From assembly GCF_011947365.2 (NCBI RefSeq), contig NZ_JAAVSH020000001.1, positions 2,551,823 to 2,588,137 of the forward strand: DNA of 36,315 nucleotides, given 5' to 3'. The DNA is from an endosymbiont of Lamellibrachia barhami. GTDB taxonomy: Bacteria > Pseudomonadota > Gammaproteobacteria > Chromatiales > Chromatiaceae. Both the position numbers and the translations under genes were made by a program. Under the pieces are notes generated by a model. It did no database searches and had not been told where the DNA came from. It worked only from the letters and a program-made list of their open reading frames with translations. Below, piece after piece: positions 18,310 to 33,700 of this stretch (position 1 is the stretch's first letter; the number at the start of each line of letters is the position of its first letter).

Positions 18310-18699
18310 GCTTTGTGATTTGTCAAGGTTGGAATTACATTCTTGCCCTGCTAAACGACGCTACTGAAGGCCTCCCTGTACCGCATTACGAGGCACGCAA
18401 ACACGTGGATACCTCTTTTCACAAAGTCCTCTCAGGTGCAACTTTGACGAATTTCTCCTGAAAGATGCGCCTAAACCCTTTCAAGTTTTGCGCATCCTGG
18501 ACGCTAACTCAGGATGGGAAGCCAACAATACGTGAAGGCATTGAAAGTGGAGCTGAAAAAGTCTGATGAATCACCCGCTCAGACCCCAATGGTTGTTTGC
18601 AATATGTAGGGGATATTCCAAGGGAACTGCGGCACTTTCCTTACGCCAAGTCACGGCTCACGAAAAGCAAGCCGCTGCGTGTGATTGGGAAGGAAGAAT
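18310..18699. other. Intergenic region before the first hybrid kinase, with an HPt-gene tail remnant
   Basis: No intact gene in 390 bases. Positions 18522-18598 resemble the remnant after the second kinase, described separately. The last bases contain AAGGAAG, the ribosome binding site for the kinase gene. Confidence 0.5.
18522..18598 (+). pseudogene. Remnant of an HPt-domain gene 3' end
   Basis: This stretch aligns without gaps, at roughly three quarters identity by eye, to 24643-24719, including the last HPt codons (QQYVKALKVELKKSDESP against QQVVTALKTELTKPD), and the similarity continues past the stop of the other copy. It is probably the tail of a deleted third kinase copy. Confidence 0.55.
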
Positions 18700-21474
18700 A
18701 TGAACAACAGCATTCAGGCTAAAATCTTTGCTGAGCGAACAGCGCTGCTCTACAAAAATGCCCCCGCATCCACCATCACTGTTCTTGTCGCTTCCTCACT
18801 GCTTACCGGAATATTGTGGGGCGAAGCACCGGCTGAATGGTTAATTGCCTGGTTCTGTGGTTTGACGACAATCGTGCTTGTCCGCTTTGGAGTGGTAGTC
18901 CGATATCGTAAAACGTTCTCTGAAAGGTCAGATCCTAAGCCTTGGGCATGGCGTTATGCCGGTGCAACCGCGCTAATTGGCATTTGTTGGGCACTGCTCG
19001 TGCCATTGGGTTTTACCGGTGAACTCTGGACCCGAATGCTTATCGTAATCCTGGTCACTCAACTCCAGTCAGCATCGATTCCCGTCCTGGTTTCATTTCC
19101 ACAACTTATGATGCTCTATACGTTACCTTCTGCCGGTGCACTGGTTTGGCTATTGGCTGCCCGTGGTGGAAACGATGCCCTGCTGAGCATTGCAATCGTC
19201 ATCTATACCATTTTGATGGTGCGTAGCTCATACAGTCTGTATCACACACTGAAAAACAGCCTGCAGTTACAGTTTGAAAAGCTGGAGCTTGCTGGAAACC
19301 TGAGCGAAGAGAAGGAGAAGGCGGAAAAGCTGAATCAAACGTTGCGACAGGAGGTGGTGGAGCGCAAACAGGTGCAGCATGAATTGGAAATGAATCGCCG
19401 GAATCTTGAGTCACAGGTCTTGGCGAGAACGGCTGAGCTGACGCAGTCTATGGAGGCAGCAGAGGCAGGAAGTCGCGCCAAAAGCGAATTCCTTGCCACC
19501 ATGAGCCATGAGATTCGTACCCCCATGAACGGCGTATTGGGGATGACGGAACTGTTGCGTGATTCTGGATTGAACGGCAAGCAACAGCAGTTTGCCGAGA
19601 CCGCCCATCGTTCCGGTCAGGCACTGCTCGATGTCATCAACAACATACTGGATTTCTCCAAGATCGAGGCCAATAAGCTGAAGTTGGTGCATGCACCCTT
19701 TGATTTGCAGGAAGTGGTCGAGGATGTGCTGCAGATGGTTGCGGAGCAGGCTCGTGAAAATCACCTGGAACTGCTCGACGATATCCCGGCTGAAATCAAC
19801 AGTAAAGTGATTGGCGATGGGCCACGCCTGCGCCAGGTGCTGATCAACCTTGTGGGTAATGCAGTGAAGTTCACCAAACAGGGCGAGATTGTGATAAGCG
19901 CTGCATTGGTGAAGGAATCCAGCGACGAGATTCTGATTCTGTTCAAGGTGCAGGACAGCGGCATTGGCATTGATGCGGACAAGTTAGCGGGAATATTTGA
20001 TGCCTTCACACAAGCAGATGGATCCATTACTCGCCAGTATGGTGGCACTGGACTGGGTTTGGCCATCTCAAGGCAGCTGGTCAGCCTGATGGGTGGCGAG
20101 ATCGGTGTGGAAAGTAAAAAGGGCGAAGGTTCAACATTTAATTTCACAGCACGGTTTGGCAAGCAGACACAAGTCATGAAACCTGCAGCCACGTCATTCG
20201 ATCTATTGATGGGAACCAGGGTACTGATAGTAGACGACAGTATCCCTACCCGCAGCTTGTTATTGAAAAAGATTGAGGACTGGGGTCTACAAGCAATCGA
20301 TGCAGATAGTGGTGATAAGGCACTGATGTTGCTTCAGGAAGCCGCTGCCAACGGAAAACCCTATAGACTGGCAATCCTCGACCGGATGATGCCCGGTATG
20401 GATGGCATCACCCTGGCACGCAGGATCAAGGCGGATCCAGCGATTGCAGATACCCGACTCCTGATGTATTCAGCCCTTCATGAGGATGCTGGCGATACAG
20501 ATTGGCGTGAAGCAGGAATCCAGGCTTATCTGAGCAAACCCGCCCGACTCAAAGATCTGCATCATCAAGTGCTGTCCCTGCTGACCGACAAACTTTCAAT
20601 ATTGGACCAGGCGAAAGTTTTGCCTGCAAAAACAGTCAATGTCGCCAAAACCACACAGAGCGGCTCTCGTATCCTGCTGGTTGAGGACAATGAGGTAAAC
20701 CAGACAGTGGCCCGAAATATGTTGGAGAGGTTGGGCTGTCGGGTGGATGTCGCAGCACAGGGGCACCTGGCAGTGGAAAGCATAAAAAAGAATCGCTATG
20801 ACCTGATTTTGATGGACTGCCACATGCCGGAGATGGATGGTTTCGAGGCCACAAAAACGATCCGCAATCAGGAACCCGACGCAAGTCACGTTCCGATCAT
20901 TGCACTGACTGCAGACGTACAAAAGGGTACGCAGGAGCAGTGCCATGCTGCTGGCATGGATGACTATCTGAGTAAGCCATTTGAACAGGAAACCCTGCGT
21001 GACGTACTGGAGAAATGGCTACCCATAGAGCAAACAAACTCGACTGACCACAACCCGCCGGTAACACCCACACAGATCGAAAACACACTGGCACAGACTG
21101 ATGAGGCCGAACCGCTGGATCAAAGGGTACTGGACAAAATACGTGCTCTGCAGCACCCTGGGGCACCCGATATCCTGGGCAAAGTGATCGGCATCTACCT
21201 GAACACAACCCCTGGGTTAATGGAGAAGATGAAAGATACGGCAGTCAATGGCGACGCGGACGTTTTGTACCAGGCAGCCCATAGCATGAAGTCCAGCAGT
21301 GCCAATCTTGGCGCCATGCAGCTCTCTGCTATTTGCAAAGAGTTGGAAGCCATTGGTCGTGAGGGGGAAATTCATAAAGCTCAGCCACTGATGGAAAGCC
21401 TGAAGATTGAATACCAAAAAGTCGAAATGGAATTGTTGGCGAACTTGGTGAAGACGAATGAAGTGTCAGCTTAG
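18700..21474 (+). CDS. Membrane hybrid sensor kinase with two receivers and an HPt domain
   Basis: A 924-residue BarA-like phosphorelay protein. Residues 22-185 hold five or six transmembrane helices with no large periplasmic loop, followed by a coiled coil (about 190-255). The HisKA domain has His270 in [15 protein letters not shown]; the HATPase has NLVGNAVKFT, DSGIGID and GGTGLGLAIS. The first receiver has its acceptor Asp561 in [11 protein letters not shown], the second Asp706 in [11 protein letters not shown], and the C-terminal HPt has His861 in AAHSMKSSSANLG. The ATG at 18700 has AAGGAAG upstream. A TTG five codons earlier is less likely. It is paralogous to the soluble kinase downstream and separated from the FIST gene by 118 bases. 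Confidence 0.92.
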   Translation: MNNSIQAKIFAERTALLYKNAPASTITVLVASSLLTGILWGEAPAEWLIAWFCGLTTIVLVRFGVVVRYRKTFSERSDPKPWAWRYAGATALIGICWALLVPLGFTGELWTRMLIVILVTQLQSASIPVLVSFPQLMMLYTLPSAGALVWLLAARGGNDALLSIAIVIYTILMVRSSYSLYHTLKNSLQLQFEKLELAGNLSEEKEKAEKLNQTLRQEVVERKQVQHELEMNRRNLESQVLARTAELTQSMEAAEAGSRAKSEFLATMSHEIRTPMNGVLGMTELLRDSGLNGKQQQFAETAHRSGQALLDVINNILDFSKIEANKLKLVHAPFDLQEVVEDVLQMVAEQARENHLELLDDIPAEINSKVIGDGPRLRQVLINLVGNAVKFTKQGEIVISAALVKESSDEILILFKVQDSGIGIDADKLAGIFDAFTQADGSITRQYGGTGLGLAISRQLVSLMGGEIGVESKKGEGSTFNFTARFGKQTQVMKPAATSFDLLMGTRVLIVDDSIPTRSLLLKKIEDWGLQAIDADSGDKALMLLQEAAANGKPYRLAILDRMMPGMDGITLARRIKADPAIADTRLLMYSALHEDAGDTDWREAGIQAYLSKPARLKDLHHQVLSLLTDKLSILDQAKVLPAKTVNVAKTTQSGSRILLVEDNEVNQTVARNMLERLGCRVDVAAQGHLAVESIKKNRYDLILMDCHMPEMDGFEATKTIRNQEPDASHVPIIALTADVQKGTQEQCHAAGMDDYLSKPFEQETLRDVLEKWLPIEQTNSTDHNPPVTPTQIENTLAQTDEAEPLDQRVLDKIRALQHPGAPDILGKVIGIYLNTTPGLMEKMKDTAVNGDADVLYQAAHSMKSSSANLGAMQLSAICKELEAIGREGEIHKAQPLMESLKIEYQKVEMELLANLVKTNEVSA

Positions 21475-21592: not shown

Positions 21593-22729
21593 ATGATATC
21601 AGAATCAATTTACGTAAAGAGAGGGGAAGTCATTGCACGGGATGAAGAAACTGCTGTTGCTGAATTTGCCGAAAACGTAAGACAACCGGACATGGCGGGA
21701 GTCATCTTCTTCTGCTCCGCTGATTATGACCTCGATCGACTCAGCCTGGCGCTAGGTGAGCAGTTCACCTGCCCTGTGATCGGATGCACAACCGCCGGCG
21801 AGATCGGATCTACCTATCAACATGGCGGAATCGTTGGGTTCAGCCTCTCGTCAGAGATGTTCAGGATTCACACGTCAGTCATTGATCCTCTCAACGAATT
21901 CAATCCTTTGGCCGCTGAGAAGCTCGCATCCGATCTGCAAGCCAACCTACAATTTTCCGAGTCGCTGGACTCAAAGAAGATGTTCGGACTCCTGTTGATC
22001 GACGGCCTCTCCTGTATGGAAGAGCAGACTGTCGCGTCCCTTTTCAACGCATTCGCTGGTATTCCTATTATTGGGGGTTCTGCGGGTGACAGCCTCAAGT
22101 TTGAGGAAACCCATGTCTATGTGGAAGGCCGCTTCAGGACAGGCGCTGCAATATTTTCGATAATCGAAACACTCCTTCCCTTCAAGACCTTTAAGCTACA
22201 GCACTTTGAACCCTCGGATATGGATATGGTCATTACCGGGGCAGACCCATCACGCCGCATCGTTACAGAGATCGATGGTGCCCCCGCCGCCAGCGAATAT
22301 GCCGAAATCATAGGTCTTGAAATTGACAAACTTACACCGCAGGTATTTTCAACCCATCCTGTCATGTTGCAGATTGGAAATGACTGGTATGTAAGATCGA
22401 TCGAAAAGGTCAATGAAGACGGCAGCCTGACCTTCTTTTGTGCGATTGATGATGGATTGCCATTAACAGTAGCCAAAGGGGTCGGTTTTGTCGATACGCT
22501 TAAGAAGCAGGTTGAACAAATTGAGGGGGAGTTTTCCAACATCGAATTCACATTGGGGTGTGATTGCATTTTACGGCGCCTGGAAATACTGGAATCAGGT
22601 GAGAAATTGGAGGTCGAGAAACAGCTCAATAAGATCAACTTCATCGGATTCAGCACCTTTGGAGAACAATATAATTCTATTCACGTGAACCAGACTCTGA
22701 CCGGGGTCGTGGTTGGAAAACTGGATTAA
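21593..22729 (+). CDS. FIST-domain sensory protein
   Basis: A 378-residue cytoplasmic protein with FIST N and FIST C domains. FIST domains are proposed small-ligand sensors, possibly for amino acids, found next to signal-transduction proteins. Family signatures include [36 protein letters not shown] and the C-terminal [29 protein letters not shown] precedes the ATG. Its TAA overlaps the ATG of the soluble hybrid kinase (TAATG), so the two are coupled and the FIST protein is the likely input for that kinase, which has no sensor domain of its own. Confidence 0.9.
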
Positions 22730-24525
22730 TGAATTCAGAAAAAGACCTTCAGTCACAAATCGCAGATCTTAAGATCCGCCTTGAAAAACAGGAGAAGATC
22801 AACAAGGCACTCAAGGCGCGCGTCAAAAGGAGTATCAACTCAAGTGGTACCGCCTATTCGGTATTTGAACGCAACATCCAGTTACAAAAAGAGGTGGATC
22901 GCCAGATTCATGGCTTGAAAAAAGCCAAGGAGGCGGCAGAAGCAGGCAGCCGTGCCAAGAGCGAGTTTCTGGCTACCATGAGTCATGAGATCCGCACCCC
23001 AATGAACGGCGTCTTGGGCATGACGGAATTGTTGCTTGATTCAGGATTGACTGGCAAGCAGCGGCAGCTTGCCGAAACCGCCTACCGTTCCGGACAGACA
23101 CTGCTGGATGTCATCAACAACATACTGGATTTCTCCAAGATCGAGGCCAATAAGCTGAAGCTGATGCATGCGCCCTTCGATCTGCAGGAAGTGGTTGAGG
23201 ATGTGCTGCAGATGATGGCAGAACAAGCACGCAAAAAACACCTGGAGCTGCTCTGCAATATTCCGACTGAAATAGACAATCAGGTAATTGGCGACGGAGC
23301 CCGTCTTCGTCAGATATTGGTCAACCTGATGGGCAATGCAGTGAAATTTACCCATCAAGGCACGATTGCGATCAACGTCTCCACTGTGGAGGAAAATAAC
23401 GAAGAGGTCGTGGTTCAATTTGAAGTGTGTGACAGCGGTATCGGTATCAAGGCAGACAAATTGGCTGGGATCTTTGGTGCCTTCAGCCAGGCGGACGGTT
23501 CCATCACCCGCAAATATGGTGGCACCGGTCTGGGTCTGTCTATCTCCAAGAAGCTGGTGATGCTGATGGGCGGAGAGATCGGCGTGGAGAGTAGAGAGCA
23601 GGAAGGCACGACCTTTCGGTTCACAGTCCGGTTTGGCAAGCAGGCGCAAGCCAGCATGCCTATGGGGGCATCTCTCGCTCAGTTTCCCGGGGTCCGGGTA
23701 TTGGTGGTGGATGACAATTCACCCACCCGCAGCCTGTTGGTACGAAAAATTAACGACTGGGGACTTGAAGCAAATGGCGCCAGCGGTAGCGATGAGGCAT
23801 TGAAGATTTTGCAGGAAGCAGCAGCAACAGACCAGCCCTTCACCCTGGCTATTCTAGATCGGATGATGCCGGGCATGGACGGCATCACCCTGGCGCGAAA
23901 AATCAAGGCGGATACAAACACTGCTGAGATTCGGCTCCTGATCTATTCCGCACTTCATGAGGAGGCTGACGATACTCTTTGGCGTGAGGCAGGGATCGAG
24001 GTCTATCTGAGCAAGCCCGCCCGACTCACGGAACTGCATGATCAGCTACTCTCCCTGTTGATCGAAAAACCATCCAATGAGCAAACGGCAGACGTGTTGC
24101 CCGACGAAACTGCCACAGCTGCTGAAACCACACTGAGTGGCTGCCGTATTCTGCTGGTCGAGGACAATGAGGTAAACCAGGTGGTGGCCGAGAGTATGTT
24201 GGAGTCATTGGGTTGTCGGGTGGATCTTGCGGATCAGGGGCAGGTGGCAGTAGAAAACGTGAAGCAGAATAATTATGACCTGATTTTGATGGACTGCCAC
24301 ATGCCTGAAATGGACGGCTTTGAAGCGACTAAATCGATCCGCAATCTGGAATCCGCTGGTAGTCGCATACCTGTCATTGCTCTAACCGCAGACGTGGAAA
24401 AAGGTACGCAGGAGCTATGCCATGCTGCTGGCATGGATGACTATCTGAGTAAACCCTATGAACGGTTAACCCTGCAGGTTATGCTGGAGAAATGGCTGCT
24501 CCCAAAGCAAAGAAAAGGCGGTTGA
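22729..24525 (+). CDS. Soluble hybrid sensor kinase with two receivers (HPt lost)
   Basis: A 598-residue cytoplasmic kinase partnered with the upstream FIST protein. An N-terminal coiled coil (about 5-75) of the kind common in FIST-associated signalling proteins is followed by HisKA with His86 in [15 protein letters not shown], a HATPase ([20 protein letters not shown]), a first receiver with Asp377 in [11 protein letters not shown] and a second with Asp522 in [11 protein letters not shown]. It is very similar to the membrane kinase from the HisKA domain on. The frame ends KQRKGG at 24525, just before where the paralogue has a linker and HPt domain; a HPt tail survives out of frame. It may rely on another HPt protein to pass phosphate on. 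Confidence 0.92.
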
Positions 24526-25441: not shown

Positions 25442-28400
25442 TCAATCTTTGCCATTCAGGTTGTCGATCAGCCATTCCAAAGGCTTCTGTTCCGCAAGTT
25501 TGAAATGTCCGCTCATACGTTTAAGAAAATCAAGATGCTGCATGACGGATTGGAACTGGCGCGGAGAAGAGGCACGCTTGCGGATGTGTTGATAGGTGTC
25601 TGCAATTGCCTCCTTCCTGTCAACCAGATCACCCTGTTTCAACGCAGCCAGCAATCTGCAGTCGTTCTCCGCTATGGCGTTCCAGAAATATTCACCACCC
25701 ATACTGGACTCAGACACATGAGCCTGCTGCAGAGCCTGACCCAACAGGCTGTCAAAGTCCCCGTCTCCACCCAGATCTTTATCACTGCTCATCCCGGCCT
25801 TTACCAGTAGCCAGTGAGCAGTCAGCCAGTTGGTCAGGGGGTAGGTGTTGATCTTGCCCTGCTGACTGAGGCAGAGCTGGTAGGAGGCTTTGTAGGCTTC
25901 CTCCATCTCCGTCAAAGAGCGACGACACTCTTTATCCTTGTCCAGATAGACAATTGAACGATGCTTGGCCGCACTCCCTTTCAATGCAAGCCGTTCGACA
26001 GTCGTGCCAAATTTTGAGTTCAGTCCATCAATGCGCTTACCGGCACGATTCACCAAACGTTTCGCAATCACCAACTGACCTTCATCGTGTAGCTTGACCG
26101 CTTCGCGCGCCTCAAAATTCGCCAATTGTTCTGCCGATTGAATTGTGGCGCCCGCCGGGTCGGCTGAGATGGCCCGTTCATAAGCCTCTATCGCTTTGGA
26201 AAACTCTCCAAGCTGGCCCCAAGCGCGTCCCGCCATTTCAACCAAGCTGGCATTCTCCGCCCATTTCGGTGGCACACGTTGCAGTAGGTCGGCCAACTTC
26301 TGACTCCAGCTTCGGGCGTCTGAGCCGGATGCCGTCTTGGCCCACTCGGCAATATTCTCGATTGCGCTTACATATTCCGCCAAAGAGACATAAGTTTGTT
26401 TGCTGCTGCGGCGCCGTCGTCCAGCTTCCGTCATCAAGGCATAACCTGGATCGCCATAACACTGGTAAGCCCCCCAGGTATTGAACCGATCATGCTTGTG
26501 ATAGGTTTCCTTCCGCGCCTGTTTCACGGCATCACCGAAGCTGCTGCCGTCGAGAAAGGCATCGTAGAAGGTCTCGGCAAAAGTCTGGGCTGCATCATCG
26601 TTAACTGCCCAGCCAGCGGCAATAACGGCCTTCACCCCTTGTCCTATCAGCTGCGTGGCCAGATTAGCCGCCAAACGATGAAAGGCTGGGTTTCTTTGTT
26701 GGCCCGAAGTATCGGTACTGCCAAGATGGCAGCAGTTAATGAAGACAAATGCCGGGGTGGAAGGCATCTGACGTATCTCTGTGGGTGTCAGAAAATGGTC
26801 TTTACCAATCACCATCCCTGTTATCAACTTAGGCCTGTCTTTGCCCTGTTCGCTTTTACAGATCGAACCATCTTCAGGTAATGAGTAGTCAACCACGCCA
26901 TGGCCCGCCAGATGAAGGATCTCGTAGTCATCCGTCATCAGCTCAGTGAGAATCTCAGTACCGCTGGCACCGATCAACGCGGGTTTTACATCAAAACCTG
27001 AATCTGACAGCAGACGTTCCACAACCCTCGCCTCCTTCTGTGCTGCGGACAAGGCAACAAACTCCGAACCATCAAGCCGGGGATCGCCCACAACCAGGGC
27101 GCGGTGGTTGTTGCAGACGCTACCAATATCACTCTCAAACGAGGCAAGCTGCCGAACCATGCCTACCTTGCTGGCCAGGGGTTCATCTCCGTCAAATCCC
27201 GCATATTCAAGCAGTTCCCAGGGGTAACGCGCTGAATGTTTATCCACCACTAATACCATGTCCTGATTATCCCGGACGTGAGTTTTGAACTCACGGGGCA
27301 CGAGCAGTTCGAACAAAGTACGCCCTGCCCTGGAATTCGACCAGGTATTGCCGGTCAGTTCTTGCAGGAATGGTTCGACCGACTGTTTCTGCAGGGGTTG
27401 TATGCTCATCTCCAACCGGGCTCGCCCCGCCAGGGAGGTATATTTCAGGCCACCGTCATCAGTACTCTCGATACGCAGGCGCTGCCACCACGCCGGGTCT
27501 TCATCATAATAGACGCGCCGCAATCGACCATCGCTGGAAATAATCTCAGGTAGAGCAGTAATCCTGTTTCTAAACTCCGGACCTTTAACAATCTGGTGTA
27601 AGGCATGCAGGGCGCCAACGGCCACATCCTCATACAATTCGATAAACCGGACGCTTTGAATCGTACGCTCAATATTGTTGGCAGGCCCGGCAAGCAGTTG
27701 GTTGGCCTGCAACACCGCACGCAGCATTGCAGTAATGGCATCTTCTGTAGACATACCACCGGCACCGGTACCGATCAGCAGCGCAGACAGGCCGATCTCT
27801 TCCGGCTGGGCAATGCCCTCTTCCTGAACGGTAAGTACGTAGCGCAATACCGCTTCGCGGAGCGTGTCGGTAAGACCGCTGCTGGTCAAGGTTCCCACCT
27901 CTCCCAACCCTATAATGATGGCGCCGGGCAGCTCATCCTGGTGGTTCCTCAAAAGTACTTCGTTGGTTTGTAATGGGCCGGGATAGAGATTTAGCAGCAG
28001 ACGCTTTTTCAGCCGGTTTTCCAAACAGGCATCCACTGCCGCCTCTGCACTGACAATGCTGTCACCCTGATAGTGACCCACTGCCACCGGGCTTGTGGCG
28101 AAACGCAGGTTGCCATGCACCACCGAGACCTGGATTGGAAGTTGCACGGGTTTACGGGGGGCTGCTGCCATTGAGCGTCCCAAAAATGCCGCTGTGAGTG
28201 CATCTTCATCAGGATAGACATCGATCTGATCAGGCAGCATTTCACGCCGCGCCTCAACACCTCGCGCCGTCTGCGGACGAGTGGATAGCAGTTGTGTATT
28301 GCCCGTTTTCAGTATCTCCAACATCCCCGTGAAGGCAGGTTCATGGTCAGGAATATCACCATGAGACGCGTCGACAAACCAGTGTTTGATGCCCGCCGGA

Positions 28401-30859
28401 ATACCTGTGTTCCAGGGAACCTGACCGTCTCCCTGGGAAGTGGAGAAAAAACGGATCTTGGTTTTTCCCTTCAGGGCCTCATCCACCTCCACCGCAACCG
28501 GCGTCTCATCCGCGCGCCCCGCTATGTAGAAAACCCTTTCCGGGTCCAGCGGGTGGCTATCCAACTTATTCCAGGTACTCTGAGCACGGCGCAAATCTGC
28601 CTTTCCGGGTCGCTTCCAGTCACCGCCCAACACCTTGCCGAATTGGTCCCACAGATTATCTGCCGGTATCTTTCCCTGATCATCCACGGGCAGCAGCTCA
28701 AGCATACCCCTGAACTCGCTTAGCACAGCCAGCAGTTGATCCTGATTATGCCGAAGATCCGCCAGCGCCAACATTTTCACCGTACGGTCCTGGCGGGAGA
28801 ATATTCTGGGAATGGAGTAGGAACCTCTGTTCGGGGTACCCAACATCAGCACGCGTGAACCGGTTCGTTCCCGTAGCCGATCCCACAACTGCGGATCCTG
28901 AGCGATCATTGCACGGAAGACGATACCACCCATCGAGTGAGCCACAATATGTACCGGCTGATCGGTATTGCGTAGCCGCTCATCCACGGCTGCGGCGAGC
29001 AACAGTCCACTCTCCATTACGCTGCGGCGCCAATCGTAAGGGAAGGGAATCACTTCGTGGGTAGCAGCAAGAAAATCGATCAGGTCACCGTAGGCGAGGC
29101 CAACAACCTGCTGGGCACTGACGTCAGATGCTTCGTATTCAAGCGCTGTAAACCTGCCCCGCAGCAGGTCGAATGGATCCACCCAGATTCGATTGTTGTC
29201 GACAGCGAGATGGCTGCCGGTCAATCCGGGAAGGATAAACACCGTGGGAACTTCACCAGACACCCGTTCGGCAGACAGGGTGCGAGCCACCGTCTTTTTC
29301 GTCTGCTTTCTCAACTGAAAGCCAGTGGGAGGTGAGGCGGTCTCCGTCAGGGCAGACAACAAGCCGCGGCGGGTTCGTTTGTTGCTGAAATACTGGAAAT
29401 GGTTGACGTCCCTGCCCTGATCGAACAGCACCGAGATACGGGCCACCCGGCGTGCGCCACCATCCATGGAAGGCGTATTCACCACCAGATCATGATCACT
29501 CTCGTAGAACTGATCGAGGAAGAACATGGCAATTTTCTTAAAGATCCCTGTGGGATTGATATCTCCCTCTATCACTGCCAGCGAAGCATGGGTACTTACC
29601 GGTGCGCTGTTGAGCAATCCGATGAGCGGTGAACCCGGCATCTGTGCCTCTAACCCAGGCAACTGTTCCGGGCGTGTACGCTCCTTCGCGACCGCCAAAG
29701 TGAAGGTCTTGAGCAGGCCATATATGGGGCTGACCTTCAACACCGGTATCTGACCAATGACATTGAGCACACCAGACAGATAGAGATCCAGCTTGCCACT
29801 CGCCAGTGTAGTGCCGCGCGCCGGACAGGCTACCCGCACGAACCTTTCTATCTTGGGCTGCTTCTCCATGAGCAGCGTATTGAGCTTTCGGAGTTGCCGA
29901 CGATGATGTGCGTAATCGTCTTTGACCTCTTGCAGGAAACCGGCGAGACTGAAGAGGTTCTCCGCATCGAATAACGCAATCTCTTCACGGGTAAATGGCT
30001 CACGCGATTCATCGAATTGAGCCCGGCATAACAGCTCTCCAACCAGTCCGCCACGGGAGTGGCTGACCAGATGCAAGGTTGCTTTGTCCGGCAAGGCTTC
30101 GAGCAGTTCTATCGCATTATCGATAGGACTTTCGCTGAGTGTGCGGTGTTCAAAGGCGAGAATATTTTCGCCATAGAAGCCTTTGAGCTGATCCCAGGTA
30201 TCGTCGAAAGACATTTTCCAAAGATCGGAGAAGCCACCTCTGGTACTGGAGGCTGTGCCATGAATGAACAGCAGTATGGGAACCCTGTTATCAATCTCTT
30301 CAGGTTTTACGGGCTGAAATCCGGAACGCTCATCCCCACTGCTGTCGAGTTGATGAATCCTAAACAGGGCACCGTCGCCAACCAGCTGATCCTCGATCAA
30401 CGCCGCAACCTTTCTGGCGGTAAACTCGGCGGCCTTTCCGGTCACATGGTCGATAATCCTGCCTTTGACATCCAGCAGCTTGAATGCCTCGACCAGCAGT
30501 CCATCCTCACCTCGTGAATGCTGGTTCGAGAACGTCAGCCGCCTGGGTATCACCAACTGATTCGGACTCGCTCCCCGATGAGACTCAGCCGTTAAAATCT
30601 CCTCCCGAAGCCTGCCCACCGAGGTAAAAACCTGCAGATTGCCCTCAAGGGTCAATTCGACCACGTCCTCATCCGTAGCCGTCAACTCCACAGCGCGGCT
30701 GTCAGCTGATCGATCCGGCACCAGACTGACGGCTGAACCGTCACGCACCTCAACCTGAAGAATATCTGTCAGCTCTTCCGCCAGCTGTTCGTTCAGCTCC
30801 CGGGTCGAAATATCTCGTCCCTGTACCACAAAGGTGGTTTTATTTCGCTTTGTTGGCAT
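25442..30859 (-). CDS. Giant dual-hydrolase / CHAT caspase-like protein
   Basis: A 1805-residue cytoplasmic protein. Residues 1-180 have no recognised family. A first alpha/beta-hydrolase (about 190-480) has ILLFIHGTASS and the nucleophile elbow SHSRGG (Ser268). A second, LCAT/lipase-like (about 535-850), has FILPGLTGS, AHSMGG (Ser642) and a candidate His833 in SHGD. Residues 905-1020 resemble a macro-like M17-peptidase N-domain (AVGHYQGD, then IIIGLGEVG). A CHAT protease domain (about 1180-1475) has His1320 in HLAGHG and Cys1377 in INCCHLG. The tail (1480-1805) is alpha-helical with a TPR-like unit near 1535-1565. The start at 30859 has a GAGGA site upstream; a GTG at 30931 would add 24 residues. 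CHAT proteases with lipase-type partners are known from antiphage and death systems; the role here is unproven. Confidence 0.85.
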   Translation of the reverse strand: MPTKRNKTTFVVQGRDISTRELNEQLAEELTDILQVEVRDGSAVSLVPDRSADSRAVELTATDEDVVELTLEGNLQVFTSVGRLREEILTAESHRGASPNQLVIPRRLTFSNQHSRGEDGLLVEAFKLLDVKGRIIDHVTGKAAEFTARKVAALIEDQLVGDGALFRIHQLDSSGDERSGFQPVKPEEIDNRVPILLFIHGTASSTRGGFSDLWKMSFDDTWDQLKGFYGENILAFEHRTLSESPIDNAIELLEALPDKATLHLVSHSRGGLVGELLCRAQFDESREPFTREEIALFDAENLFSLAGFLQEVKDDYAHHRRQLRKLNTLLMEKQPKIERFVRVACPARGTTLASGKLDLYLSGVLNVIGQIPVLKVSPIYGLLKTFTLAVAKERTRPEQLPGLEAQMPGSPLIGLLNSAPVSTHASLAVIEGDINPTGIFKKIAMFFLDQFYESDHDLVVNTPSMDGGARRVARISVLFDQGRDVNHFQYFSNKRTRRGLLSALTETASPPTGFQLRKQTKKTVARTLSAERVSGEVPTVFILPGLTGSHLAVDNNRIWVDPFDLLRGRFTALEYEASDVSAQQVVGLAYGDLIDFLAATHEVIPFPYDWRRSVMESGLLLAAAVDERLRNTDQPVHIVAHSMGGIVFRAMIAQDPQLWDRLRERTGSRVLMLGTPNRGSYSIPRIFSRQDRTVKMLALADLRHNQDQLLAVLSEFRGMLELLPVDDQGKIPADNLWDQFGKVLGGDWKRPGKADLRRAQSTWNKLDSHPLDPERVFYIAGRADETPVAVEVDEALKGKTKIRFFSTSQGDGQVPWNTGIPAGIKHWFVDASHGDIPDHEPAFTGMLEILKTGNTQLLSTRPQTARGVEARREMLPDQIDVYPDEDALTAAFLGRSMAAAPRKPVQLPIQVSVVHGNLRFATSPVAVGHYQGDSIVSAEAAVDACLENRLKKRLLLNLYPGPLQTNEVLLRNHQDELPGAIIIGLGEVGTLTSSGLTDTLREAVLRYVLTVQEEGIAQPEEIGLSALLIGTGAGGMSTEDAITAMLRAVLQANQLLAGPANNIERTIQSVRFIELYEDVAVGALHALHQIVKGPEFRNRITALPEIISSDGRLRRVYYDEDPAWWQRLRIESTDDGGLKYTSLAGRARLEMSIQPLQKQSVEPFLQELTGNTWSNSRAGRTLFELLVPREFKTHVRDNQDMVLVVDKHSARYPWELLEYAGFDGDEPLASKVGMVRQLASFESDIGSVCNNHRALVVGDPRLDGSEFVALSAAQKEARVVERLLSDSGFDVKPALIGASGTEILTELMTDDYEILHLAGHGVVDYSLPEDGSICKSEQGKDRPKLITGMVIGKDHFLTPTEIRQMPSTPAFVFINCCHLGSTDTSGQQRNPAFHRLAANLATQLIGQGVKAVIAAGWAVNDDAAQTFAETFYDAFLDGSSFGDAVKQARKETYHKHDRFNTWGAYQCYGDPGYALMTEAGRRRRSSKQTYVSLAEYVSAIENIAEWAKTASGSDARSWSQKLADLLQRVPPKWAENASLVEMAGRAWGQLGEFSKAIEAYERAISADPAGATIQSAEQLANFEAREAVKLHDEGQLVIAKRLVNRAGKRIDGLNSKFGTTVERLALKGSAAKHRSIVYLDKDKECRRSLTEMEEAYKASYQLCLSQQGKINTYPLTNWLTAHWLLVKAGMSSDKDLGGDGDFDSLLGQALQQAHVSESSMGGEYFWNAIAENDCRLLAALKQGDLVDRKEAIADTYQHIRKRASSPRQFQSVMQHLDFLKRMSGHFKLAEQKPLEWLIDNLNGKD

Positions 30860-31223
30860 CTTGCCGTCCTCTTCGGTGCAGTGTGCTGGGCTTGGTGGGA
30901 ATGGCATCCACTCCAGCGAAAGACAGACCACTCTTTGCCATGAGGATATCTGGTCAAAACCCCGGATGCCCGGTACTCCTTAGAGAGTTTCCTTCCCAGT
31001 TTAGCAGACAGGCTGAAATTATCTGTGAAGCAACCGGCCTGCCTTCAGGAGGTGTTAAGAAGCACTTGAGCAAGGGTTATACTTAACATATCAATGGCGT
31101 CAAGGGGGGCGAACACCCTGTCAGAAAGACAATGCTTGCCTGCCTGCACAAACCTGTGTCACTACACTCGTAAATCTGGGAAACAGCTGCTGTAGACATG
31201 CCGAGTCATTCATTTCCGCCACG
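30860..31223. other. Divergent intergenic region between the CHAT gene and the DISM kinase
   Basis: About 360 bases with the candidate minus-strand promoter noted separately. A 78-codon plus-strand frame at 30850-31086 overlaps the CHAT start and has no family resemblance, so it is not called. Nothing else recognisable. Confidence 0.5.
31076..31103 (-). promoter_or_regulatory. Candidate sigma-70 promoter for the CHAT gene
   Basis: The minus strand reads TTGACG, 16 bases, then TATAAC. Transcription would start near 31069, leaving a 5' leader of about 210 bases before the CHAT start. Confidence 0.4.
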
Positions 31224-32582
31224 ATGCGCTTGCTGGTGACCCTGCTGTTGCTATGGTCAAGCCTTTCTGCAAACGCCGCTGACCAACGGCTTCTCTCGGG
31301 TCAGACGGAGCAGGTCATTCTCGGTCCATACCTGGAAATATTCGAGGATAAACAGGCAGACCTGGATATTTTCGATGTAGCCTCCCCTGCATTCGAACAA
31401 CGCTTTCACCCTGTCGGCAAGGAGCAGCTCAGCCTCGGTTACAGTAGATCCGCGTTCTGGCTGCGTTTTTCTGTTCGCTGGACCGACGCCAGTCCCCTGC
31501 TGCTGCAACTGGCTTATCCACTCTTGGATTCCATCGCCTTCTACCTCCCGAATGGCCCGGAAGACTTCAAGGTATCAAGAGCAGGTGACACGCTGCCAGC
31601 TTCCATTAGGGAACTCCCCTCACCTGACATTTTGTTCTCTCTGCCTGCCATACCGGAGTCCGAACAAACCTATTACCTGCGTATTCATTCCGGAGGTAGT
31701 CTGCAACTGCCGCTGTATCTCTGGTCCACAACGGTATTTGCCAGAGAGAATGGCAAGGTCCGTTATATCCATGGGGTCTACTACGGGATCATGCTGGTGA
31801 TGATCCTCTACAACTTGTTTCTGTTTCTGTTCGTTAAGGATCGAAACTATCTGCATTACGTGGTTTACATCACCTGTTACCTGTTATTCCAACTCTCCCT
31901 CAACGGCTATGCCCAGCTCTACCTCTGGCCGGAAAACCCCTGGTGGGCAAATCGCTCGGTGCCTTTCTTCGTTGGTCTGGTAACTTTCTTCGCCACCAAT
32001 TTCTCCCGGCAGTTTCTCACCACGCGGGAATATCTGCCGAGGATCGACTGGTTATTGAAGGGCCTGATGGTATTCAGCCTGGGCATCATGCTAGGCAGCC
32101 TGGTTCTGACCTATGACATCATGGCCCCTGTCTCAAATATTGCGGGCGTATTGTTACCCATAGTGCTCTTGCCCGCCGGCTATCTCAGCTTGCGCTCAGG
32201 TTATCGGCCCGCGCGATTCTACGTCATTGCCTGGAGTATGTTTCTGTTCGGGATCTTTGTCACCGGTTTGATGTTCACTGGCTTTGTGCCGCGTAATCTG
32301 TTTACCAGTTATGCGATGCAGGTCGGCTCCGCCATGGAAGTCGTGCTGCTCTCCATCGCACTGGCGGACCGCATCAATATATTGCGGCGCGAGAAGGAGA
32401 TCGCCCAGCGTGAATCCACGAAAAACCTTCAGCAGCTCAACGAAGGGTTGGAAGCCCAGGTGGAACAACGCACGCAAGCATGCTGGAGCAGACCGTGTTT
32501 GAACGCACCGCAGACCTGCGTCACAGCAACGACGAATTGTCACGGGCCGTGCACGCCAAAGATCAATTCCTTGCCACCATGA
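31224..32582 (+). CDS. 7TMR-DISM sensor kinase, N-terminal sensory half (frameshifted)
   Basis: The sensory half of a hybrid kinase. A signal peptide (about 1-18, ending ANA) precedes a periplasmic 7TMR-DISMED2-type beta-sandwich (about 20-175; LGYSRSAFWLRF, PLLDSIAFYLP) and seven transmembrane helices (about 185-385; GVYYGIMLVMILYNLFLFL, NYLHYVVYITCYLLFQL). The cytoplasmic linker (about 390-420) begins a coiled coil ending EAQVEQRTQ. The frame then reads non-homologous sequence to a stop at 32582, while the kinase continues in the next ORF, one base out of phase. DISM proteins often sense carbohydrates or other periplasmic ligands. The break is one missing base near 32475. Confidence 0.85.
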   Translation: MRLLVTLLLLWSSLSANAADQRLLSGQTEQVILGPYLEIFEDKQADLDIFDVASPAFEQRFHPVGKEQLSLGYSRSAFWLRFSVRWTDASPLLLQLAYPLLDSIAFYLPNGPEDFKVSRAGDTLPASIRELPSPDILFSLPAIPESEQTYYLRIHSGGSLQLPLYLWSTTVFARENGKVRYIHGVYYGIMLVMILYNLFLFLFVKDRNYLHYVVYITCYLLFQLSLNGYAQLYLWPENPWWANRSVPFFVGLVTFFATNFSRQFLTTREYLPRIDWLLKGLMVFSLGIMLGSLVLTYDIMAPVSNIAGVLLPIVLLPAGYLSLRSGYRPARFYVIAWSMFLFGIFVTGLMFTGFVPRNLFTSYAMQVGSAMEVVLLSIALADRINILRREKEIAQRESTKNLQQLNEGLEAQVEQRTQACWSRPCLNAPQTCVTATTNCHGPCTPKINSLPP

Positions 32583-33700
32583 GCCATGAACTACGCACGC
32601 CTCTTACTGCCATCCTGGGTCTCTCGGAGATATTGTCCGGGAAAAGACCTGGACCACTGACCGATCTGCAACAGCGCTATATCGGCATCATCTCCGATAG
32701 CGGCAACCAATTGCTCGCACTGATCAACGATATTCTGGACATAGCCCAGATTGAATCCCAAGGCATGGAACTGGAGCCCGATTGGATTCAGGTGGAGGAT
32801 ATCTGCCAGGCCAGTCTGACACTGGTCAGGCCAGCTGCGGAGAAAAAGGGCCAGCACATTGCTTTCAAGCGGGATCCAAAGACAGAAACTGTTTGGGCAG
32901 ATAAGATTCGCCTGAAGCAGATCCTGGTCAATCTGATGGGAAACGCTGTGAAATTCACTCAGGACGGGGGGACAATTGGTTTGGATGTTCAAGGAAAGCA
33001 AGAGGACAACAGCATCGAATTCACCGTATGGGACACCGGATGCGGTATCGCAACGGAGGATCTTGAACGGCTGTTTAAACCCTTTGTCCAGTTGGACGAC
33101 ACTTTCTCACGCCAACATGAAGGAACAGGACTCGGGCTCAATCTTGTATACCGGCTAACAGAATTGCACGGAGGCAGCATCTGGGTGGAGAGTGAGGTTG
33201 GGCACGGCAGCCGCTTTATGGTGCGCCTGATATGGAACAGGGACGCGCAGGTTCAGGCTGAGCCATCAACTCAAGAGAGCAGCAACTTACCCGCCCCTGA
33301 CGCACCGCCCCCTCGCACGGGATCAGCCACCGTACTCATGGCGGAAGACAATGAGCTCAATCTAATCATACTTTCCGAATTCCTCATCGGTCAGAGTTTC
33401 GAAATCCTGTCAGCGAGAAACGGCGTGGAAGCCGTGCAAATGGCATCGAATACCCATCCGGATATCATCCTGATGGATATACAGATGCCAGAGATGGACG
33501 GCCTGGAGGCAACACGGCGCATCCGGGCGATGCCACACCTGGCATCGGTTCCAATCATCGCCCTGACCGCACTGGTCATGCCGGGCGACAAAGAGCGTTG
33601 CATAGAGGCCGGTACCAATAGCTATTTGAGCAAACCGGTAAACTTGAGCCAATTGTCAAAGGAGATGACCTCACTGCTGAACAAACACGCATCAGCTTAG
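32480..33700 (+). CDS. 7TMR-DISM sensor kinase, kinase-receiver half
   Basis: The 406-residue continuation of the preceding gene. It starts within the coiled coil (MLEQTVFERTADLRH) and has HisKA with His36 in [15 protein letters not shown], a HATPase with [17 protein letters not shown] and GTGLGLNLVY, and a C-terminal receiver with the acceptor Asp in ILMDIQMPEMDG. No HPt domain. The ATG at 32480 has no clear ribosome binding site and the ORF overlaps the previous one by about 100 bases, so independent translation is doubtful; most likely both halves were one protein of about 825 residues. Confidence 0.87.
   Translation: MLEQTVFERTADLRHSNDELSRAVHAKDQFLATMSHELRTPLTAILGLSEILSGKRPGPLTDLQQRYIGIISDSGNQLLALINDILDIAQIESQGMELEPDWIQVEDICQASLTLVRPAAEKKGQHIAFKRDPKTETVWADKIRLKQILVNLMGNAVKFTQDGGTIGLDVQGKQEDNSIEFTVWDTGCGIATEDLERLFKPFVQLDDTFSRQHEGTGLGLNLVYRLTELHGGSIWVESEVGHGSRFMVRLIWNRDAQVQAEPSTQESSNLPAPDAPPPRTGSATVLMAEDNELNLIILSEFLIGQSFEILSARNGVEAVQMASNTHPDIILMDIQMPEMDGLEATRRIRAMPHLASVPIIALTALVMPGDKERCIEAGTNSYLSKPVNLSQLSKEMTSLLNKHASA

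Follow-up and report, generated by a model that had tools for sequence, protein, structure and literature searches.

A predicted lipase-lipase-CHAT protein in a tubeworm endosymbiont as a candidate single-chain conflict effector

The stretch of DNA analysed here, hereafter the window, comprises 36,315 nucleotides from an endosymbiont of Lamellibrachia barhami (contig NZ_JAAVSH020000001.1, positions 2,551,823 to 2,588,137) and carries on its minus strand a gene for a protein of 1805 amino acids in which two lipase-like alpha/beta hydrolases are joined to a CHAT caspase-like protease and a sensor-type tail. We propose, with a probability of about 0.5, that this is a single-protein conflict effector of the abortive-infection type, in which a sensor-gated CHAT protease unleashes the fused lipases and stops or kills the cell. 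The C-terminal TPR-S (Tetratricopeptide Repeats-Sensor) domain, perhaps together with a domain resembling the N-terminal part of M17 peptidases, would detect a partner or some cue tied to infection, and this would switch on the cysteine protease. The protease would then free or activate the two N-terminal lipases, most simply through a cut in a linker at Arg866, and the freed lipases would attack membrane phospholipids, whereupon the cell would stop or die. Every step of this scheme, from sensing and the switching on of the protease through the cut to cell death, is predicted from sequence, and so is the lipid substrate.

Domain layout and active sites

The reading frame runs from an ATG at 30859 to a stop at 25442, with an alternative upstream GTG start at 30931 that would give 1829 amino acids. 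Four relatives from the genus (L002-L005; L numbers denote loci of relatives) share this ATG and the length of 5418 bases. Near-full-length relatives at 29-46% identity also have stop-free open frames, which excludes a chance frame, and the single uninterrupted frame of 1805 codons described in the first-pass annotation is confirmed, on the minus strand. The closest relatives in the species collection are from four endosymbionts of Escarpia and Lamellibrachia, with 93-95% identity over the whole protein; these hosts are tubeworms according to PMC12045306. In the host genome of 4.17 Mb the gene was the sole match to itself and also the sole CHAT match found.

Pfam agrees with the first-pass annotation on two alpha/beta hydrolases and a CHAT domain and identifies what had been described as a helical-repeat tail as TPR-S; the matches to DUF7379, LCAT, CHAT and TPR-S each exceed the curated cut-off. 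The four motifs quoted in that annotation are all present, namely SHSRGG (Ser268), AHSMGG (Ser642), HLAGHG (His1320) and INCCHLG (Cys1377), whereas the Peptidase_M17_N-like module at residues ~900-1168 was absent from its description. The modules follow each other in the order N-terminus without a Pfam match, DUF7379/lipase-like hydrolase, LCAT/phospholipase-A2-like hydrolase, Peptidase_M17_N-like, CHAT and TPR-S.

Residue conservation was assessed in an alignment of 56 relatives, the window protein included, all with two hydrolases and CHAT, which form 39 clusters at 75% identity; L039, which has another layout, and redundant, contained and partial frames were left out. For comparison with the structure database, profiles were built from 15 relatives, again including the window protein. 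The features are as follows, with expectation values given as E and cluster counts out of 39.

25442..30859, minus: whole gene, 1805-residue lipase-lipase-M17_N-like-CHAT-TPR-S protein (open reading frame, Pfam)
30290..30859, minus: residues 1-190, N-terminal region without Pfam match (mean ratio of nonsynonymous to synonymous substitution rates, dN/dS, 0.126 within the genus)
29330..30289, minus: hydrolase 1 (DUF7379), residues 191-510 (PF24096, E 2.3e-32)
30056..30058, minus: Ser268, nucleophile elbow SHSRGG of hydrolase 1 (Ser in 37/39)
29489..29491, minus: Asp457, predicted triad Asp of hydrolase 1, in DHDLVVNT (39/39)
29399..29401, minus: His487, predicted triad His of hydrolase 1 (39/39)
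28286..29248, minus: hydrolase 2 (LCAT / group XV phospholipase A2-like), residues 538-858 (PF02450, E 6.5e-8)
28934..28936, minus: Ser642, nucleophile elbow AHSMGG of hydrolase 2 (Ser in 36/39)
28427..28429, minus: Asp811, predicted triad Asp of hydrolase 2, in GDGQV (39/39)
28361..28363, minus: His833, predicted triad His of hydrolase 2 (39/39)
28163..28285, minus: mostly variable linker from hydrolase half to protease half, residues 859-899 (entropy scan)
28259..28264, minus: Arg866-Gly867, candidate cleavage site (aligned Arg in 33/39)
27356..28162, minus: Peptidase_M17_N-like domain, residues 900-1168 (3jru, E 5.2e-5; PF02789 in relatives)
26450..27331, minus: CHAT caspase-like protease, residues 1177-1470 (PF12770, E 1.1e-28; 8tl0, E 2.7e-5)
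26900..26902, minus: His1320, predicted CHAT catalytic His (39/39)
26729..26731, minus: Cys1377, predicted CHAT catalytic Cys (39/39)
25820..26236, minus: TPR repeat leading into TPR-S, residues 1542-1680 (PF20308, E 1.1e-7)

Asp457, His487, Asp811, His833, His1320 and Cys1377 are thus invariant across the clusters, while Cys1376, beside the predicted catalytic Cys, is replaced by Ala in two of them. The CHAT domain scores 101 bits against a cut-off of 24, and with this domain and its His/Cys dyad the protein falls in the CHAT peptidase class, for which proteolysis is predicted. Hydrolase 2 scores 32.6 bits against a cut-off of 21. Its profile finds group XV phospholipase A2 (4x90, E 9.7e-11), in an alignment that covers the stretches around Ser, GDGxV and His; domain, triad and GDGxV motif place it with the LCAT / group XV phospholipases A2, and its predicted substrate is a phospholipid. 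Hydrolase 1 scores 112.9 bits against a cut-off of 33 and has the Ser elbow. Its profile weakly resembles a thermostable bacterial lipase (3auk, E 7e-4; best single stretch 0.03), of a kind that we take to be the Geobacillus type, and the Asp457 stretch aligns at 1.1 bits only with the stretch of 3auk-type lipases that presumably holds their catalytic Asp.

Within the protease half, the profile of the M17_N-like region matches the N-terminal domain of the cytosol aminopeptidase 3jru. PF02789 was found in the relatives L037 (E 6.3e-7, above the cut-off), L036 (3.7e-3) and L052 (8.6e-4), the latter two below it. No family for the catalytic M17 domain was matched in the Pfam scan of the protein, and the N-terminal domain alone is recognisable. 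The TPR-S match covers residues 1553-1680 with 32.8 bits against a cut-off of 27.6 and stands beside an effector-type domain, as in conflict systems, while a TPR_1 match (E 0.0013) is under its cut-off. That TPR-S senses an invader is suggested by the name of the family; Burroughs and Aravind are reported to have introduced TPR-S and pYEATS as sensor domains of immunity, on which our literature search found nothing.

The predicted structures of the two protein halves, made with five near-identical alignment rows, had mean predicted local distance difference test (pLDDT) values of 31.1 and 32.4, low values that most likely reflect this shallow alignment. PADLOC gave three matches to the protein itself, the best of which (E 0.0028) aligned 42 residues with a type I specificity subunit, and these were judged spurious.

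The gene is under purifying selection, as the first-pass annotation had supposed. The whole-gene dN/dS values against four relatives of the genus were 0.114-0.166 (about 0.11-0.17), with module means of 0.087 for hydrolase 1, 0.105 for hydrolase 2, 0.106 for the M17_N-like domain, 0.220 for CHAT and 0.141 for TPR-S. That annotation had also set the intact frame against decayed genes nearby, a contrast that held in part: the 7TMR-DISM histidine kinase gene at 31224-33700 is split into two overlapping frames here and is a single frame of 839-875 amino acids in L003, L004, L005 and L051, but the genes for the FIST-domain neighbour and a 598-residue kinase are open and have low dN/dS values of about 0.12-0.16 (0.118-0.133 for FIST).

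The linker and the target of the protease

Column entropies in the linker are mostly 2-3.6 bits, compared to 0.6 bits for Arg866 (0.9, 1.9 and 1.1 for columns 858, 862 and 863). In 31 of the 33 clusters that have the aligned Arg, the next residue is Gly, Ser or Ala. Irrespective of how this column is aligned, the pattern Arg-[Gly/Ser/Ala] is present somewhere in the linker in 35/39 clusters, whereas random windows of equal length from the same proteins, drawn 500 times, contained it in 14.5 clusters on average and in 25 at most. The same pattern was found in 15-22/39 clusters in four other regions, for which the random-window means were 10-17. At this place an Arg is found in the more distant variants L037, L038 and L053 as well, followed by Ser, Ile and Thr, respectively. 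The Arg866 linker is therefore the best candidate cut site, and self-cleavage is plausible.

Recombined forms of the protein point in the same direction. L036 consists of M17_N, CHAT and TPR-S and lacks the hydrolases; a TIR gene lies on each side of it, although not directly adjacent. L037 combines LCAT, M17_N and CHAT and adjoins a SIR2-pYEATS gene, L039 combines DUF7379 and CHAT and adjoins a SIR2-AAA gene, and L053 consists of LCAT and CHAT. In L038 trypsin replaces CHAT next to LCAT, and L052 retains LCAT, M17_N and TPR-S with no CHAT match, the domain having apparently been deleted. These forms indicate that lipase and peptidase modules tend to co-occur and that the peptidase can be swapped. 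The recurrence of the modules together, the trypsin form included, and the linker Arg speak for the hydrolases as possible targets of the protease.

Several observations weigh against a cut at Arg866, and it is quite possible, if slightly less so than the opposite, that the Arg serves structure or docking, or simply comes with a tail rich in Arg, and that the hydrolases need no cut to be active. The presence of any Arg in the linker is uninformative (38/39 clusters, with a random mean of 33.1 and a maximum of 38). The aligned Arg is absent in L101, L097, L096, L099, L107 and L013, which make up one f75 clade (support 1.0) with an intact CHAT dyad, although L107 still has Arg-Gly nearby. The stand-alone LCAT-like lipase L020 has Arg-Thr at the matching place, with no protease apparent from the reading frames of its 4-kb locus. 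A control of seven short unfused LCAT-like proteins (L166-L172), six of which have a readable tail, gave Arg-Ala in 2/6 tails within ~40 residues of the His, so that it separates fused from unfused proteins only imperfectly. Moreover, the linker motif is neither necessary nor proof, since the loop that is cut by the CHAT protease Csx29 is flexible and contains no essential residue (PMC10028731). The low entropy of column 866 among mostly variable neighbours speaks, on the other hand, against a purely structural role, as does the excess of Arg-[Gly/Ser/Ala] linkers over random windows, although at least one of these linkers (L097) has the motif off the aligned place.

A cut in trans, in some other protein, has about the same likelihood as one in cis. 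The stricter version of this idea, that CHAT cuts a separate protein and spares the fused lipases, which would then be a second effector under the same sensor, seems somewhat unlikely. It has a precedent in Csx29, which cuts the separate protein Csx30 (PMC10028731), and it accords with the intact dyad of the Arg-less clade and with the occurrence of the protease half without hydrolases in L036, L120 and L121, the last two of which adjoin a caspase gene. Yet, apart from caspase at four loci, no neighbour family recurs at more than 2/34 loci within three genes on each side, as a partner encoded nearby would. At the other extreme, the protein could be a one-chain counterpart of pyroptosis with lipases in the place of a pore, in which a zymogen is opened by one cut at Arg-Gly/Ser/Ala in the linker to release a phospholipase pair; we consider this specific form unlikely. 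The Ser is lost from hydrolase 1 in L107, L106 and L013 and from hydrolase 2 in L111, L046, L076 and L095, and the two sets do not overlap among the 56 sequences. Since either serine is lost in relatives and never both, the two lipases may back each other up, but the losses are so few that the non-overlap may be due to chance.

Distribution and neighbourhood

The distribution of the gene is patchy and includes plasmids. Counting the own genome and partial matches, relatives were found in 7/57 genomes of the family (E <= 1e-10; two are short stretches), 25/210 of the order (E <= 1e-50) and 13/369 of the class Gammaproteobacteria (E <= 1e-20), as well as in 4/250 and 33/63 genomes of two other orders. 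The genus g601, within the latter order, had matches in 16/16 genomes, one of them partial and four with two places; these are L092-L098, L100-L107 and L110. A profile of the M17_N-like region matched 5/398 genomes in a phylum sample, one of them weakly (2e-6) and perhaps as a true aminopeptidase. Among 72,556 plasmid records 24 matched, of which 7 cover at least 80% of the query, and near-full-length relatives or module variants are present on plasmids of Paracoccus, Azotobacter and Rhizobium. There was no match in 50,697 phage records, and a 15-row profile yielded 49 pattern matches in viral contigs but no confirmed relative. In a FastTree phylogeny of the 39 clusters with midpoint rooting, the host family f1 is scattered, with L082 inside f75 and L081 grouping with L109 of f75 (support 0.99-1.0), and these several separate placements point to horizontal transfer.

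We examined the neighbourhoods of 34 relative loci, two of which belong to a single genome (G1247), over three genes on each side. Immunity-type genes (caspase, TIR, nSTAND or restriction) were found near at least 8 of the 34, a lower bound since not every neighbour was scanned individually. Restriction genes are located near L033, nSTAND1 near L034, TIR near L040 and L124, TIR and caspase near L139, and a caspase and a TIR-NB-ARC-TPR gene near L046. The caspase (Peptidase_C14) genes lie one or two genes upstream of L120 (11161-11952), L121 (9221-10099), L046 (12870-13715) and L139 (11003-11998); in L120 and L121, which lack the hydrolase half, the caspase is a second caspase-type protease beside the CHAT protein. 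Together with the TPR-S tail, these genes uphold the connection to bacterial conflict systems that the first-pass annotation had drawn.

On the further question raised there, whether homologues sit in defence islands, the answer was only partly positive, and some of the neighbourhood data speak against a defence role. In a pooled set of 65 neighbours, caspase (4/65) and TIR_2 (3/65) stand out, but among the 25 of 70 Pfam families listed the others are mostly ordinary, metabolic or signalling. This set consists of 63 of the 67 first neighbours, four overlapping or antisense frames having been left out, and two hand-chosen second neighbours (nSTAND1 and caspase), which raise those two counts by one each. 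PADLOC matched 16 families in the 65 neighbours versus 63 in 60 control genes, which were taken from 20 regions elsewhere in 15 of the same genomes. Of the 63 control families, the 25 listed consist mainly of restriction and methyltransferase models, each with a single member and probably all matched by the same protein, plus a few others. They include no caspase, although one may be present among the rest of the 63; the control nevertheless exceeds the neighbours, and a general defence-island signal is not supported. None of the eight window neighbours scanned by Pfam is an immunity gene: the window copy is flanked by a nitroreductase and a two-component kinase, and the neighbours are otherwise signalling genes. 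Finally, one of the six listed genomes of the window's genus that carry the gene (G373, L051; a single-contig genome) has a copy in which the frame is interrupted near residue 965-970 by a stretch that contains a DDE transposase gene, at 6352-7635 of L051, and the gene is therefore probably dispensable there. The defence context is partial, not clean.

With such neighbours, the protein might alternatively be a housekeeping or stress enzyme by which environmental bacteria remodel their lipids, with the attached protease in a regulatory role that is unrelated to phages. The presence of the gene in all genomes of g601 and in the six listed genomes of the window's genus, the mostly metabolic or signalling matches and the low dN/dS values are in line with such a role. 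We nonetheless consider it improbable in view of the sparse occurrence elsewhere (as in the 5/398 and 4/250 genomes above), the mixing of families in the gene tree, the plasmid copies, and the associations with TPR-S, caspase, TIR, SIR2 and nSTAND.

Two further features of the neighbourhoods were noted. In the window, two similar hybrid histidine kinase genes (18685-21474 and 22729-24525) flank the FIST-domain sensor gene, and the genes next to the window copy (kinase, FIST and DUF302) are retained in several loci of the genus, with differences among loci. On the Paracoccus plasmids, L032 (4613-7897) and L035 (4246-7521) share a gene of ~1090 codons directly upstream, to which no function was assigned and which in L035 overlaps the giant gene by 4 bases.

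Comparison with known systems

The partner of bacterial caspase-like proteases is, to our knowledge, often unknown. In the conflict effector proposed here, a likely partner shares the chain with the protease, a candidate site for the cut is at hand and the active sites are conserved, so that the coupling of protease and effector is testable by point mutants of a single gene. If the host is, as its closest relatives indicate, a dense intracellular symbiont of tubeworms, an altruistic response to phages would be favoured. The closed 3.6 Mb genome of the tubeworm symbiont Candidatus Endoriftia has been described as having a seemingly dysfunctional restriction system, with CRISPR being stressed, and the terms CHAT and caspase are absent from the main text (PMC9796809).

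Judged by titles and the openings of abstracts, our literature search found no report of a fusion of CHAT with a lipase or phospholipase, none joining a CHAT domain with LCAT and none mentioning DUF7379. The annotated plasmid relatives carry the generic name 'CHAT domain-containing protein' without an assigned function. The closest solved CHAT structure by profile, PDB 8tl0, has the same generic title and is, we assume, a SAVED-CHAT protein; the likeness is confined to the protease, as no SAVED family was matched by Pfam in our protein and the PADLOC match to SAVED_CHAT was not significant (E 0.012).

CHAT proteases that regulate gasdermins have been described in bacteria and fungi (PMC10197012), and there as here a CHAT protease would control a membrane-attacking effector, although the candidate effector in our protein is lipase-like and fused; no gasdermin gene is present among the eight window neighbours scanned. 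The same eight genes include no MoxR or vWA gene. In the MoxR-vWA (VMAP) conflict systems, the caspase is always accompanied by a neighbouring alpha/beta-hydrolase gene, and the authors suggest that the caspase-superfamily peptidase and the hydrolase operate jointly (PMC7159879). The two activities are encoded by separate genes in those systems, whereas here CHAT and two hydrolases share one chain with the M17_N-like and TPR-S domains.

The protease of Craspase, Csx29 (TPR-CHAT, type III-E CRISPR), resembles our protein in being a CHAT His-Cys protease that carries TPR and is switched by a sensor, and it illustrates that bacterial caspase-like proteases can work by cutting a partner, in this case Csx30, whose flexible loop is cut once a conformational switch has taken place (PMC10028731). 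Csx29 acts with Cas7-11 on a separate substrate, whereas in the protein described here the TPR lies C-terminal of CHAT, two hydrolases lie N-terminal of it, and the likely partner is fused to the protease.

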